Part shown: in pieces, positions 3,693 through 12,519 of the stretch
Numbering within the stretch: the stretch's first letter is position 1
Layout of the letters: each line of letters begins with the position of its first letter
IMG/VR virus record: IMGVR_UViG_3300027710_000090
Span: 1-31,519 of that record
DNA: 31,519 nt
Reading direction: 5' to 3' (one strand)
Source of the DNA: a virus
Made by a program: the position numbers and the translations under genes
Notes under the pieces: model-generated
Database searches by the model: none
The model's input: the letters and a program-made list of their open reading frames with translations, nothing else
Told to the model about the DNA's origin: nothing

Positions 3693-5105
3693 ATGGACTT
3701 TACCAAACTTTCAGAACAGTTTAACGCAACTTTAGCAGAGAATGAATTGCTTCGTGAGAGCTATACTTCCATGGCTCAGGCAGTGCTTGCCTTCGATGAA
3801 GCAGGCTGGAACCCATCTGGTGCAGTAACCGAAACAGGATTTACGCTAACTCAGATAAAAGATATCTCCAAGAAGGCAAGACAAACAGCAGAAGGTAACC
3901 CGCTGCTAAAGCGTGGCTCTGCACTTCGCACTTCCTACATCTTTGGTCGTGGCATTAACTTTAATGAACAGCCACCAAGAGTTAAAAGACTTATGGAGCT
4001 ACAGCAGAACCAAGATGTTCTATTCTCCCCAGAAGCTCAGGTAATTAACGAGCGTAGCCACTTCACAGATGGACAGTTCTTTGTTCTTGGAAACATAAGC
4101 ACTAAAGCTTTTCAGCGTATTCCCTTCACTCAGGTCTCTGCTGTAGTTACAAACCCAGATGACGATGAAGACATTTGGTACTACCGCAGGACTTGGACAC
4201 GTAAAGCATCGAACCTAGTTGGTTCTGGTGGTTCAGATGAGCTACTAAACGTTTGGTATCCAGCTGACACTTACAACCCAGCCAACGGAAGATACGTTGC
4301 AAGAATTGAAAACCAGCCAGTTGACACAACTTTCAGAATGTTTGCATCCCGTGTAAACCGTAGAGCTGGTTCTATCTGGGGTATTCCAGATGCTTTCCCA
4401 GCTTTACCTTGGGCACACGCATACAACGAGTATCTAAAAGATGGCTCACGTATGCTCAAGGCACTGGCTATGTTTGCTTGGCAACTAAAGAGCAAGACAC
4501 GTGCTGGTGCAACTAACGCAGCTGCAGCTATTGCAACACCTGCAACTTCTGCTTCTACCGCAGTTGTTGGAAACGACATGGAGCTATCAAGCTTACCTCG
4601 TGCAAACTCAATTGACCTAAGCGATGGTAGACCACTTGGTTCTATGGTTGCGAGCGCATTAGAAGTTTCAGTTGTAGCTTTGCTTTCAGACCCAGGAACT
4701 TCTGGTGCCTATGGAACTGCACAGACTTTAGATATTCCAACCATTAAAGCAATGGAAGCTAGACAGCACGTCTGGACCATGTTCTACAAGAGAGTTATGG
4801 ACTTCCTTGGTTCTAGAGATGTAGAGATTAACTGGCCTAAGATTGAAACCGAATCAAGCCAGAGAATGATGCAGGCCCTAGCTTTGGCTAGAGAGACTAA
4901 TGCTATCTGGGATGACGAATACCGTGAAGCTGTCATCGAAACCCTTGACATTCCAAGGCTACACGCAGGCTTACCTCCAGTTGCTGGAGACCAAGCACAA
5001 GACGCTGGTTCTGCAATTCCATCTCAGGGTAACACTGGAGCAGTTGGTTCTTTGCAAGACAACGCAAATGATTTGAGAGACGCAGACGCAGCTCCCTTAG
5101 CATAG
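3693..5105 (+). CDS. Portal protein
   Basis: A 470-residue protein directly after the large terminase and before the protease/scaffold gene, the standard place and size for the dodecameric portal through which DNA enters and leaves the capsid. The sequence has the usual features: an N-terminal helical region, a central beta-rich part around residues 120-215 (including the VTNPDDDEDIWYYRRTW strand pair), a stem region, and a helical crown with a low-complexity Ala/Gln/Asp tail. An upstream in-frame ATG at 3684 is unlikely because AGGA (3681-3684) would overlap it; the ATG at 3693 has correct spacing. No catalytic motif is expected. Assignment is by context and overall pattern. Confidence 0.85.
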   Translation: MDFTKLSEQFNATLAENELLRESYTSMAQAVLAFDEAGWNPSGAVTETGFTLTQIKDISKKARQTAEGNPLLKRGSALRTSYIFGRGINFNEQPPRVKRLMELQQNQDVLFSPEAQVINERSHFTDGQFFVLGNISTKAFQRIPFTQVSAVVTNPDDDEDIWYYRRTWTRKASNLVGSGGSDELLNVWYPADTYNPANGRYVARIENQPVDTTFRMFASRVNRRAGSIWGIPDAFPALPWAHAYNEYLKDGSRMLKALAMFAWQLKSKTRAGATNAAAAIATPATSASTAVVGNDMELSSLPRANSIDLSDGRPLGSMVASALEVSVVALLSDPGTSGAYGTAQTLDIPTIKAMEARQHVWTMFYKRVMDFLGSRDVEINWPKIETESSQRMMQALALARETNAIWDDEYREAVIETLDIPRLHAGLPPVAGDQAQDAGSAIPSQGNTGAVGSLQDNANDLRDADAAPLA

Positions 5106-8328: not shown

Positions 8329-8337
8329 TGGTATAAT
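8329..8337 (+). promoter_or_regulatory. Extended -10 promoter for the ribonucleotide reductase
   Basis: TGG-TATAAT (8329-8337) followed by AG. The predicted start near 8344 falls inside the upstream arm of the inverted repeat described at 8338-8380, so a transcript from this promoter would lack most of that arm, while readthrough RNA from 7681 would contain it. Confidence 0.6.
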
Positions 8338-8380
8338 AGTCCTCCAACCCCAAACTAGTAATTAACCTTAAAGGAGGACT
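8338..8380 (+). promoter_or_regulatory. Inverted repeat that can sequester the reductase Shine-Dalgarno sequence
   Basis: AGTCCTCC (8338-8345) is the perfect complement of GGAGGACT (8373-8380), which contains the core of the Shine-Dalgarno sequence. The loop is 27 nt. The downstream arm is followed by a T-rich stretch (TTTAAATTTTTT), so the element could act as a ribosome-binding-site switch or as a weak terminator/attenuator. The loop is too small for a cobalamin riboswitch. Confidence 0.55.
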
Positions 8381-8384
8381 TTAA

Positions 8385-10418
8385 ATTTTTTCATTCAAAC
8401 TAACAGAAGAATTTGTATCAGAATACCGCACCAAGAAAGCACCGTTTGGCTACCAAGATGTAGCTGGTAACTCGGTTGGTGAAATAACTTTTCTAAGAAC
8501 CTACTCACGCCTTAAAGAAGACGGCACCAAGGAAACTTGGGCTGATGTCTGTGAACGTGTTATCAACGGAATGTACTCACTTCAGAAGGACCACGCAAAG
8601 CAAAGCCGTCTACCTTGGAACGACAGCAAGGCTCAGGCCTCTGCCAAGGAAGCTTACGCAAGATTGTTTGACCTAAAGTGGACCCCACCAGGCCGTGGCC
8701 TTTGGGTCATGGGAACTGATATTGTAAATAGGCAGAAGAACTCTGCAGCACTTCAGAACTGTGCTTTCGTTTCTACTAACGAAATGACCAAGGCAAACCC
8801 AGGAAAGCCATTTGCTTTCTTGATGGAAGCATCTATGCTTGGGGTGGGTGTAGGCTTTGATGATAAGGGTGCAGACAAAGGCTTTGACATTTACGAGCCA
8901 ACTGGCACACAAGAATACCTAATCCCAGACACACGTGAGGGCTGGCAGGAATCTACAGTCGCACTTATCAACTCATACCTAAAAGCTGACCAGCAGGCCC
9001 TAGAGTTTGACTACAGCGAGGTTCGTCCTTATGGTAGCCCAATTAAAAGCTTTGGTGGAACTGCATCTGGACCTGAGCCACTAATTAAGTTGCACGACCA
9101 CATTAGAAAACTATTCACTGGCAGGGCTGGCGAAAAGCTTACTCGCAGAGACCTAGCAGACATTGGAAACATGATTGGTGTTTGCGTGGTTTCTGGAAAC
9201 GTTCGCCGTTCAGCAGAGCTTCTAATCGGTAGGATTGATGATGAGGATTTCCTGAATCTTAAAAACGCAGAGAAGTTCCCAGACCGCAACAGCTACGACC
9301 CTGCTAACCCAGGTTGGGCTTGGATGTCCAATAACTCTGTAGAGGTTTCTGTTGGCACTGACTTTAGCCCAATTGTGGACCACATTGCAATGAACGGTGA
9401 GCCAGGAGTTATCTGGATGGACATGAGCCGTAAGTACGGAAGACTAGCTGACCCAGCCAATAACAAAGACCACAGAGTGGTCGGCTTTAACCCTTGTGCC
9501 GAGCAGAGTCTTGAAAGCTTTGAGATGTGTACACTGGTCGAGACCTACCTAAACCGTCACGAGTCATTAGAAGATTACAAGCGTACTTTAAAGTTTGCTT
9601 ACCTTTACGCAAAGACTGTAACCTTGCTCCCAACCCACTGGGAGGAAACAAACGCAATCATGCAGCGTAATCGCCGTATTGGAACTTCAATGTCTGGTAT
9701 TGCAAACTTTGCCGATATCCATGGTCTACCTGCACTAAGCAAGTGGATGGATGAAGGCTACGCAGTTGTCAAAAAGTACGATGAGACCTACTCAGAGTGG
9801 CTAGGCGTTCGTGAGTCTATTAAGACTACAACCGTAAAACCATCTGGCACAGTTTCAATCCTTGCTGGAGAATCCCCAGGAGTTCACTGGACCCCAGGTG
9901 GCAAGTACTTCCTTCGTGCAATCCGCTTTTCAAACACTGACCCAATGTTGCCACTATTTAAAATGGCTAACTATACAGTTGAGCCAGCCAGTGAATCACC
10001 AGACAGTACATCCGTTGTATTCTTCCCAGTCAAATCTGATGCCGAAAGAGCAGAACGAGATGTCTCAATTTATGAGAAGATGGCTCTAGCTGCAACCGCA
10101 CAGAAGTGGTGGTCAGATAACTCGGTGTCTGTGACTATTACTTTCGACCCTGAGACTGAATCCAAGGATGTTGGAAGCGTGCTTCACATGTACGATGGTC
10201 AGCTAAAGACCGTCAGCTTCCTGCCTTCTGGAAACCACGTTTACCCACAGATGCCTTACACGCAGATTACACAGGCTGAGTATGACCAGTATGCAATGAA
10301 GCTATTTGAGATTGACCTAGCTGGCGTTTACGCTGGCATGGCAGCCGATGCAATTGGAGACGCTTACTGCACCACAGATGCCTGTGAGGTTAAATTTGTT
10401 GTGGAGAATAACAAGTAA
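8385..10418 (+). CDS. nrdJ: Class II adenosylcobalamin-dependent ribonucleotide reductase, probable ATT start
   Basis: A single-chain B12-dependent reductase making deoxyribonucleotides, about 677 residues against 739 in the Lactobacillus enzyme. The catalytic motif NPCAEQSLESFEMC places the thiyl cysteine at Cys371, Glu373 two residues later and the second disulfide cysteine at Cys382; its partner is Cys126 in QNCAF. The C-terminal shuttle pair is Cys662 and Cys667. The first ATG (8571) is too late: 62 upstream codons in frame encode the conserved N-terminus (FKLTEEF, EITFLRTYSR, ETWADVCERV). No ATG, GTG or TTG occurs there, and the frame opens after a stop with ATT at 8385, seven bases after GGAGG. 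It has its own promoter and sits in the accessory block. Confidence 0.9.
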   Translation: MFSFKLTEEFVSEYRTKKAPFGYQDVAGNSVGEITFLRTYSRLKEDGTKETWADVCERVINGMYSLQKDHAKQSRLPWNDSKAQASAKEAYARLFDLKWTPPGRGLWVMGTDIVNRQKNSAALQNCAFVSTNEMTKANPGKPFAFLMEASMLGVGVGFDDKGADKGFDIYEPTGTQEYLIPDTREGWQESTVALINSYLKADQQALEFDYSEVRPYGSPIKSFGGTASGPEPLIKLHDHIRKLFTGRAGEKLTRRDLADIGNMIGVCVVSGNVRRSAELLIGRIDDEDFLNLKNAEKFPDRNSYDPANPGWAWMSNNSVEVSVGTDFSPIVDHIAMNGEPGVIWMDMSRKYGRLADPANNKDHRVVGFNPCAEQSLESFEMCTLVETYLNRHESLEDYKRTLKFAYLYAKTVTLLPTHWEETNAIMQRNRRIGTSMSGIANFADIHGLPALSKWMDEGYAVVKKYDETYSEWLGVRESIKTTTVKPSGTVSILAGESPGVHWTPGGKYFLRAIRFSNTDPMLPLFKMANYTVEPASESPDSTSVVFFPVKSDAERAERDVSIYEKMALAATAQKWWSDNSVSVTITFDPETESKDVGSVLHMYDGQLKTVSFLPSGNHVYPQMPYTQITQAEYDQYAMKLFEIDLAGVYAGMAADAIGDAYCTTDACEVKFVVENNK

Positions 10419-10422
10419 TATA

Positions 10423-10431
10423 TGGTAGAAT
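10423..10431 (+). promoter_or_regulatory. Extended -10 promoter for the non-coding segment after the reductase
   Basis: TGG-TAGAAT (10423-10431) followed by AG. A start 7 nt after the box is base 10438, the first base of the first hairpin. The fit between predicted start and hairpin supports a dedicated non-coding transcript. Confidence 0.5.
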
Positions 10432-10437
10432 AGCACT

Positions 10438-10513
10438 ACACGATGTACCTCCTTTCATCGTGTGTGTTGTGTGAGGACCGCCCTGTCGAGTTTTCTCTGG
10501 GGTGGTCCTCCTT
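10438..10513 (+). ncRNA. Candidate small RNA with anti-Shine-Dalgarno loop
   Basis: Two strong hairpins fill this gap. ACACGATG (10438-10445) pairs perfectly with CATCGTGT (10456-10463) and displays TACCTCCTTT in its loop, close to the CACCTCCTTT at the 3' end of bacterial 16S rRNA. GAGGACCGCCC (10473-10483) pairs with GGGTGGTCCTC (10500-10510) with one G-U pair. No reading frame with a ribosome-binding site is present. CCTCCTTT (10448-10455) and GTCCTCCTT (10505-10513) are perfect complements of AAAGGAGG and AAGGAGGAC in the reductase ribosome-binding site. No clean U-tract follows, so the 3' end is unclear and it could instead be part of a longer leader. Confidence 0.5.
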
Positions 10514-10521
10514 ACATTGAC

Positions 10522-10530
10522 TGATAGAAT
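10522..10530 (+). promoter_or_regulatory. Extended -10 promoter 9 nt before the first fibre gene
   Basis: TGA-TAGAAT (10522-10530) with 9 nt to the ATG at 10540 and no Shine-Dalgarno sequence in between. The same TGATAGAAT-to-ATG geometry occurs at 12722-12740 and 16509-16527, which suggests a near-leaderless start with about 3 untranslated bases. Confidence 0.5.
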
Positions 10531-10539
10531 GGGTATATC

Positions 10540-12519
10540 ATGATAATTTGGCCTGATAACAACCTACCCACGCAATCTCGTGAATGGGCAGAAGTTGTCG
10601 AAGACGAAATTGAGCGCATTGATAAAAAGGGTTCAGGCGGAGGCGGTGCTTCTGGGGATGGTGCTGCTGGACCAGCGGGACCACAAGGACCTCAGGGACC
10701 ACAAGGACCTGCTGGTGCTAATGGGGCGCAAGGTCCTCAGGGGCCACAAGGACTTCCAGGATTAGATGGCTCTGACGGGGCACAGGGTGCTCCAGGAGCC
10801 ACTGGTGCTCAAGGACCCCAGGGTGTCCAGGGTATACAAGGAGAAGTCGGTCCACAGGGCGTACAGGGCCTAACAGGGCCTCAGGGTCAGACTGGTCCTA
10901 AGGGTGATACTGGAAACACTGGCCCTCAAGGTATCCAAGGTATCAAGGGAGATACTGGTTTAACTGGTGCAAAGGGAGATACTGGAGACCAAGGCCCTCA
11001 AGGGGTTGCAGGTCCTAAGGGTGACACAGGTGATACTGGACCTCAAGGAGCTACTGGACCTCAGGGTCCAACTGGCGCTCAAGGTGGCAATGGTTTCTCG
11101 GCATACCAAGTTGCCGTCATTGAAGGCTTTGTCGGAACCGAAGCTGAGTGGCTTGCAAGTTTAGTTGGGGAAACGGGTTCCACTGGTCCTGCTGGTCCTC
11201 AAGGTATTCAGGGTATCCAAGGTGCTACTGGACCAGCGGGAGGGGGAGGCAACCTAGACAGCCTAACTGACGTTGTTGTTTCATCACCCTTTAACAATCA
11301 TGTTCTTCAGTACAACGGAACAAACTGGGTTAATAGAAACATTTCACTTTCAGGGTCGTCGCAAACAATGAATAGCCTTACGACTGATTCACACGCAAGT
11401 CTTGGTGGGGTTTATCCAGCCTCCCAACCTGCTTTAAAAGTTTATGGAAATAACGACCTTGATTCTGAGTACGCTATAGCAGAATTTTACAGTACCTCGG
11501 ATGTAAAAGTTGCTGACATTGACCCATCTGGTAGGATAACCGCGGCAGATTTTATTACAACTGGTAGATATGAAGGAAATGGAAACTTTTTAACTGCAGT
11601 CTCTGGCTCAAGGAACCATATTCTAAATGGGGCTTTTGATATTTGGCAACGTGGAACAACTGGTTTTACAACAAATAACTCTTACACCGCAGACCGTTGG
11701 ATTGCTTCAAGTTCTGCTGGTTCTTTTACGGTTTCAAGGTCTCTAAATCCACCAAGAGCTGCTCTATCTTTTGGTTATGCTGAACCAAGGTCGGAAAGCC
11801 TCTATGCTTTATCGTTTGTTTCAAATAGCGGAACTAATCCAACAATTACGCAACGAATTGAATCTTCAAATTCTGTTGCTTTTGCTGGAAGAGCTGTGAC
11901 TCTTTCGGTGTGGGTTAATGCACAAACTGGAAGTAGTGGAATAAACTGGTCTACTTCATACCCAAATTCTGATGATAACTGGGTCTCGGAAACAGCAGAC
12001 AAAAATGGAGTTTTTGCAGCAACTGCAACTGTTAATTCTTGGGTTAGGTACACAGCAACTTTTCATGTAAATCCTCTTGCAAGTAGAGGCTATGCTATAA
12101 AAATCTTTAGAAACGCAACAACTACCTCAACTCAAACTTTATACGCTGGCGTTCAGCTAGAGATTAATTACAACAATGAACCAAATAAGACCCCACTTGC
12201 TAGCCCATTCCAAAGAAACTCTCCAAGCATCCAAGCTGAGCTTGCTGCTTGTCAAAGGTACTATCAAGCATCTCCCACAATAAACTTTGGTTATCAAACT
12301 GACACCAACGGTTTTGGAGCTGTGGTTTTTCTTGGCTTTCCAACCACTATGAGAATCGCTCCAACTGTATCAACAACATTTACAAATGGTGACAATGCTA
12401 CTAACGGTGGAATACAGAGCACCGTAGCAAGCGGATTTGTTCATAGAGGCGCTAGGGCAAACGCAGGTTTTGGTTACTTTAGCTACAGCCTTTCATACAC
12501 AGCAACGGCGGAGTTATAA
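10540..12519 (+). CDS. Collagen-like tail fibre / receptor-binding protein
   Basis: A 659-residue fibre. Residues 1-33 ([20 protein letters not shown]...) form a short N-terminal segment probably used for attachment; a Gly/Ser linker follows. Residues about 40-237 are Gly-X-Y triplets (GPQ, GAQ, GDT, GIQ) forming a collagen-like triple-helical shaft, interrupted near 184-211 by [19 protein letters not shown], a motif often found between collagen blocks of phage fibres. The C-terminal 400 residues are beta-rich, including a [15 protein letters not shown] start and a strand-rich jelly-roll-like part suited to carbohydrate binding. Attachment to host surface glycans is inferred. No Shine-Dalgarno sequence; promoter 9 nt before the start. 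The stop overlaps the next ATG. Confidence 0.85.

Follow-up and report, generated by a model that had tools for sequence, protein, structure and literature searches.

A gene for a class II ribonucleotide reductase (8385..10418, + strand; PHROG 367, E 2e-141, and its reading frame) lies in the window analysed here, by which we mean the whole stretch of 31,519 nucleotides (nt) formed by positions 1 to 31,519 of IMG/VR virus record IMGVR_UViG_3300027710_000090. The gene opens with an ATT codon, and its ribosome-binding site (RBS) has three complements, one upstream of the gene and two downstream. An earlier note had read this arrangement as what looks like a multi-layer translational control circuit. 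The question that the locus raises is whether the three complements are elements of one kind. They are three different things: one arm of an inverted repeat, the loop of a small RNA (sRNA) and part of a terminator-like stem. The explanation that we find best overall, with a probability of roughly 0.58, is that a late sRNA directed against Shine-Dalgarno (SD) sequences stands beside a separate upstream arm of the T4 gene e type; the earlier interpretation is partly supported.

Three complements of the reductase ribosome-binding site

The reductase RBS reads AAAGGAGGACT (8370-8380). Its complements are AGTCCTCC on the 5′ side (8338-8345) and, downstream, CCTCCTTT (10448-10455) and GTCCTCCTT (10505-10513); a TATAAT box occupies 8332-8337. 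All of these sequences and positions, as the earlier note had reported them, were verified. On the + strand of the window the three sites are the only matches of at least 8 nt to the reverse complement of the RBS. Chance alone would supply about 1.15 such 8-mers in 31.5 kb, or about 0.002 in a given stretch of 60 nt. The arms beginning at 8338 and 8373 form a perfect 8-bp inverted repeat, and folding confirmed that the copy at 10448 is located in a hairpin loop. Most of the copy at 10505-10513 is not free sequence but forms one side, the 3′ strand, of a stem that resembles a terminator (10473-10484 paired with 10499-10510). Because the same strand in relatives reads GGGGCGGG or similar, the anti-SD character of 10505-10513 is coincidental, and a functional role for this complement was rejected. 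The suggestion that the two downstream complements could act in trans survives for the loop copy, which is real, but not for the terminator arm, which is not conserved as an anti-SD.

A conserved small RNA between the capsid and tail-fibre genes

The loop copy almost certainly belongs to a phage sRNA that is strongly conserved and predicted to be transcribed independently, and forms its apical loop. In the window, a covariance-model match and the fold place the sRNA at 10438..10515 (+ strand), with a 5′ end predicted from promoter spacing and an approximate 3′ end, so that its predicted length is about 75-80 nt. An extended −10 promoter (TGG TAGAAT; 10423..10431, + strand) precedes it. The first hairpin (10438..10463, + strand) pairs 10438-10445 with 10456-10463 and exposes the anti-SD in its loop (10446-10455; TACCTCCTTT). 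The loop reads ACCTCCTTTC, which we take to match the generic 3′ tail of bacterial 16S rRNA. A terminator-like hairpin, recognised by folding and in the covariance alignment, follows at 10473..10510 (+ strand), and its 3′ strand holds most of the 10505-10513 complement. The window RNA folds with −41.4 kcal/mol (z −7.5). Covariance model R1, which was built without the window, matches 10436-10511 with 40.9 bits; model R2, which includes the window, scores the window copy at 55 bits and detects no second copy in the window. An Rfam scan of the window returned no family at its gathering score for the sRNA, and membership of CyaR (RF00112) was rejected because the match reached 16.5 bits, whereas the gathering score is 47.

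Relatives were gathered by way of the reductase and, in alignment A1, of the major capsid protein. In dozens of them the unit has the same order of parts: a −10 box (usually extended), a hairpin with the loop NNCCUCCUU, a spacer, a terminator hairpin whose conserved core is GUUGAG...CUCC, and the next promoter. The unit sits between the capsid and tail-fibre genes, upstream of a collagen-like tail-fibre gene, in 34 distinct sequences. A TANAAT-class −10 box is found 10-19 nt 5′ of the loop motif in 34/34 of these elements and CCTCCTT (CCUCCUU) in the loop of 33/34, and in 24/34 the stem starts at the sixth or seventh base after the −10 box used, that is, at the expected transcription start. 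The stems differ completely around the fixed loop, as in GTCCCA/TGGGAC, GTCGCG/CGCGAC, AGTTGCGG/CTGCAACT and ACACGATG/CATCGTGT.

An initial MAFFT alignment (A2), in which the loop had slid against the stem, gave way to a cleaner seed and an alignment by the covariance model. Alignment A4 (12 sequences, MAFFT, not fitted to structure) has 99.1% of its cells paired. Changes on both sides affect 10 pairs and 28 cells, a result seen in 0/500 shuffles, with at most 4 pairs in slid controls. In alignment A5 (43 sequences aligned by the covariance model, which leans towards structure), all six modelled pairs of the first stem carry compensatory double changes, with 180 double-changed cells in all (0/500 shuffles), and the terminator stem is 99-100% paired. 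The element has the general features of a structured small RNA, namely compensatory changes and, as sequence patterns, its own promoter and terminator. In longer environmental records R1 gave one strong match each in six of seven; the one exception, L256, escaped R1 at that setting, although the element is visible by eye. Other CCTCC hairpins of at least 6 bp are rare (2 among 30 loci). Viral contigs scanned with a 16-base DNA pattern gave loci that included two known relatives. As a separate observation, the terminator core with its 2-nt bulge (10482-10499 in the window, and in relatives) is more constant than a terminator requires and might have a second function or be a protein site.

The distance from the capsid stop codon to the unit is about 2170-2860 nt where the reductase intervenes, about 185-1155 nt where small genes do, 73-84 nt where nothing lies between, and 4119 nt once. 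Since the distance varies and the unit is present without the reductase, the sRNA is independent of that gene. The earlier note had cast the downstream complements as possible feedback in trans, and in its strictest form this reading makes the sRNA a dedicated reductase repressor and the whole locus one circuit. It gains from the reductase having the strongest SD in the window, 8 nt of which match the loop exactly, and from the adjacency of sRNA and reductase in several relatives. It cannot easily accommodate the phages in which the sRNA directly follows the capsid gene with no reductase there, nor the loop, which shares the core alone and does not track the flanks of the reductase SD. The sRNA was also not found at other reductase-bearing phage loci: across 59 loci from other phages, R2 gave no convincing match at a distance of up to about 4 kb from the reductase, and the two matches in L017 (E 0.01-0.05, on opposite strands of one spot) look like a terminator. 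We consider a dedicated feedback repressor highly improbable, and reductase-specific feedback was rejected as the primary role because the sRNA follows the capsid lineage and not the reductase. A single circuit is likewise not upheld, given that the upstream arm and the sRNA are separate and the third complement is coincidental.

Similar RNAs after the capsid gene of named phages

In Clavibacter phage CN1A the gap after the homologous capsid gene contains GTGGTCG-TTTCCTCCTTCT-CGACCAC, and in Jojan60 it contains TTGTTGGCG-TTTCCTCCTTTC-CGCCAACAA, in both cases with a promoter-like site on the 5′ side and a terminator-like hairpin on the 3′ side. R2 gives the CN1A element E 8.7e-7 and that of Jojan60 only E 0.1. 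Microbacterium phage Wolfstar has a CTCCTCCTCCTTC loop after the capsid gene. In the Arthrobacter phages Amigo (L296, around 3834) and Molivia (L282, 7290-7325), TTCCTCC is the loop of a 14-bp terminator hairpin, with no separate 5′ hairpin. ASegato (L293, about 3745-3780) has a terminator-like hairpin after the capsid gene with a long C/U-rich loop in which UCUCC/CCUCC recurs several times; it may be a multi-site form of the sRNA. R2 does not find the RNAs of Amigo, Molivia, Wolfstar or ASegato, and these therefore resemble the sRNA in position and loop without being proven homologues. No such hairpin was seen after the capsid gene of MinS1, TripleJ, LuckyBarnes, RcDormio or Cassita. Among named phages DSL-LC01 has the closest reductase; its gene neighbourhood differs, and R2 gives no match there. 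We also observed that Jojan60 (L283/L299), recorded as a Stenotrophomonas phage, has a WhiB-like gene, and its host label may be wrong; WhiB-like genes have been described as exclusive to Actinobacteriota (PMC10202952).

Shine-Dalgarno sequences of late genes and the proposed role of the RNA

What would such an RNA do? We think it likely, from the identity of the loop, that its function is to pair with SD sequences. The exposed CCUCCUU, which copies the 3′ tail of 16S rRNA, would act in trans during the virion-building phase, pairing with GGAGG-type SDs and blocking 30S binding on strong-SD messages. Its targets would be early phage genes, the reductase and probably host mRNAs; the reductase would be the prime candidate, as no SD in the window is stronger. 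An RNA that masks SDs leads to an expectation for the phage itself, which is that genes expressed late, together with the RNA, should be poor in strong SDs.

We counted GGAGG within 20 nt upstream of starts and compared the late strand with the other strand, gene classes being set by strand or annotation. In six environmental records that carry the RNA, where classes were set by the strand of mechanically called open reading frames and both include spurious ones, GGAGG precedes 6/220 late-strand and 44/197 other-strand starts (p 2e-10). The corresponding counts are 1/20 against 47/72 in Jojan60 (p 1e-6) and 0/26 against 15/53 in Wolfstar (p 0.0016), and in CN1A the late SDs are weaker by pairing energy (p 0.015). 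Three phages with related capsids that lack the RNA show the opposite polarity, their late SDs being stronger (Montesquieu, p 0.006; TripleJ, p 0.009; LuckyBarnes, p 0.008). In the window, five late-gene starts (958, 10540, 12740, 17368 and 21721) lie 6-9 nt behind a −10-like box, and their mRNAs are therefore predicted to be near-leaderless. The late structural genes, GGAGG-depleted and in part near-leaderless, would thus be spared, and silencing of strong-SD messages would free ribosomes for them. We regard such an early/late translational switch as evenly balanced between true and false.

Several observations weigh against it. GGAGG counts show no difference in CN1A, the depletion in Molivia is a trend only, and the comparison as a whole, with its classes drawn by strand or annotation, spans few independent lineages. 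Most late genes also retain moderate SDs, so that their sparing cannot be complete.

One could envision two other ways in which the RNA might work. The first is that it is mainly a host-shutoff agent that masks host SDs, with secondary effects on early phage genes. The loop is generic for SDs and could bind any GGAGG-led host mRNA, and GGAGG depletion in late genes is equally expected; we nevertheless consider this unlikely as the main role. The second is that the hairpin acts in cis or with a protein, as an RNA-polymerase, processing or packaging signal, or as a decoy for a factor of the 16S 3′ end. The fixed genomic position, the unchanging loop and a stem starting where transcription is predicted to begin would suit such a signal. 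The conserved letters, however, are exactly the SD complement, the loop variants of diverged members keep UCUCC or CCUCC, and a protein decoy does not predict that late genes avoid the matching SD. For these reasons a cis-acting or protein-binding element seems very unlikely.

An SD-pairing sRNA may also have a wider reach. It is conceivable, at slightly less than even odds, that in a widespread group of tailed phages, mainly of actinobacteria, a capsid-linked sRNA constitutes a global anti-SD switch that silences GGAGG-led early and host mRNAs late in infection. The late genes would have co-evolved to need no strong SDs, with starts that are weak or nearly leaderless, dividing the genome into an SD-dependent half and an SD-resistant one. 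If true, this would be an early-to-late translation switch made of RNA only, and possibly a host-shutoff agent, and it would help to explain the poor ribosome-binding sites of late genes in some actinophages. Because related RNAs are found in phages of Arthrobacter and Microbacterium that can be cultured, the idea is directly testable.

The upstream arm

The extended −10 promoter of the reductase (TGG TATAAT; 8329..8337, + strand), whose position is kept in relatives, directly precedes the 5′ arm (8338..8345, + strand), which would be present only in transcripts begun upstream. The earlier note had proposed that RNA reading through from NlpC folds shut and that RNA from the dedicated promoter escapes. 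In the predicted fold of the readthrough RNA, the SD is indeed closed by the 8-bp pairing (−12.7 kcal/mol), and an RNA started near 8344, the predicted start, excludes the arm. Among the relatives whose sequence differs from the window, L207 is the closest. Its arms read GGTTCTCC/GGAGAACC where the window has AGTCCTCC/GGAGGACT; both members of two pairs have changed and all eight pairs are kept, as would be the case for 1 of 252 possible two-substitution arms. L206 has the same sequence as the window and is not an independent comparison. The arm also coincides with the absence of a terminator. In the window, L206 and L207, NlpC runs into the reductase with no terminator between them and the arm is present, whereas in L234/L003 and L004 NlpC lies 5′ of the reductase with a terminator between and no arm. 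Relatives without NlpC have the capsid terminator in that place instead. Around position 2385 of L205 the arm is kept and the SD and start region of the reductase are missing, which may reflect a short deletion or an assembly variant.

Could the repeat around the promoter have arisen by chance and have no regulatory role? The arm is absent from all but the closest relatives, the covariation sought among related phages comes from one informative comparison, L207, and the readthrough fold is no better than shuffles (z −0.95). These points weigh against a regulatory arm. Two exact compensatory changes and the coincidence with terminator absence argue against chance, and we judge a fortuitous repeat possible, with the odds leaning against it. 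The regulatory arm is supported within a small clade; there it would close the reductase SD in NlpC readthrough RNA, and RNA from the reductase's own promoter would escape.

Comparison with known systems

The layout at 8329-8385 is that of a known type of device. In T4 genes e, soc, 49 and I-TevI, long transcripts begun upstream hide the RBS, which is accessible when the RNA comes from a promoter that leaves out the 5′ strand (PMC3014915). The RNA from the proximal promoter would likewise exclude the 5′ strand here, its start being predicted. T4 uses early versus late promoters; a difference in timing is not evident at the reductase because both promoters look like extended −10 sites.

For the sRNA, the closest functional parallel in T4 is a protein. 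The RegB endoribonuclease inactivates early mRNAs by cutting GGAG in their SDs and aids the early-to-late transition (PMC3014915). The outcome proposed here is the same, and the sRNA would be an RNA counterpart of RegB, except that RegB cuts whereas the loop would mask the SD; the comparison is one of function, and no homology is implied. Among RNAs, the streptococcal csRNAs are similar in being small, with two stem-loops, an anti-SD loop and low overall sequence similarity; csRNA1-3 and csRNA5 share a conserved CCUCCU anti-SD motif in their first loop (PMC4438229). A CCUCC-type motif is exposed in the apical loop of the phage elements as well, in the same 33 of 34. The csRNAs differ in that they are chromosomal, controlled by CiaR and not phage-borne, with about 40 unpaired nt between the stem-loops (PMC4438229). 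The phages considered here infect other bacteria, and no Rfam match links the csRNAs to the sRNA.

CyaR of E. coli, which is not a family to which the sRNA belongs, resembles it weakly in its C/U-rich apical loop, with CUCCC in the Rfam consensus. CyaR pairs with SD regions and is Hfq-dependent. The Cuckoo/CcsR RNAs of alphaproteobacteria are hairpins with C/U-rich, anti-SD-like loops beside a terminator; they are alike by description and differ in being chromosomal and usually tandem hairpins. Anti-SD loops are thus known in a few bacterial sRNAs. We found no phage anti-SD sRNA in the literature searched, which does not imply absence elsewhere. The phage RNA combines a strictly conserved anti-SD loop, proximity to the capsid gene and a matching loss of strong late-gene SDs.

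Start of the reductase gene and neighbouring features

The reductase SD (8370..8380, + strand), of which 8373-8380 pairs with the 5′ arm, has a predicted pairing energy of −11.7 kcal/mol, the strongest among the listed starts of the window, and the ATT start (8385-8387) lies directly 3′ of it. ATT is kept in L207, L206, L234/L003, L239, L004 and L241; in other relatives the position is occupied by ATG or TTG. Because several relatives keep it, the ATT start is unlikely to be a sequencing error. Behind the sRNA, an extended −10 promoter (10522..10530, + strand) precedes the tail-fibre gene, whose ATG at 10540 lies 9 nt behind it, so that a near-leaderless mRNA is predicted. Finally, most relatives (L001, L003, L004, L239, L246, L250 and L255) have a TAGACC motif after the reductase promoter, where the window has the SD-complementary arm.
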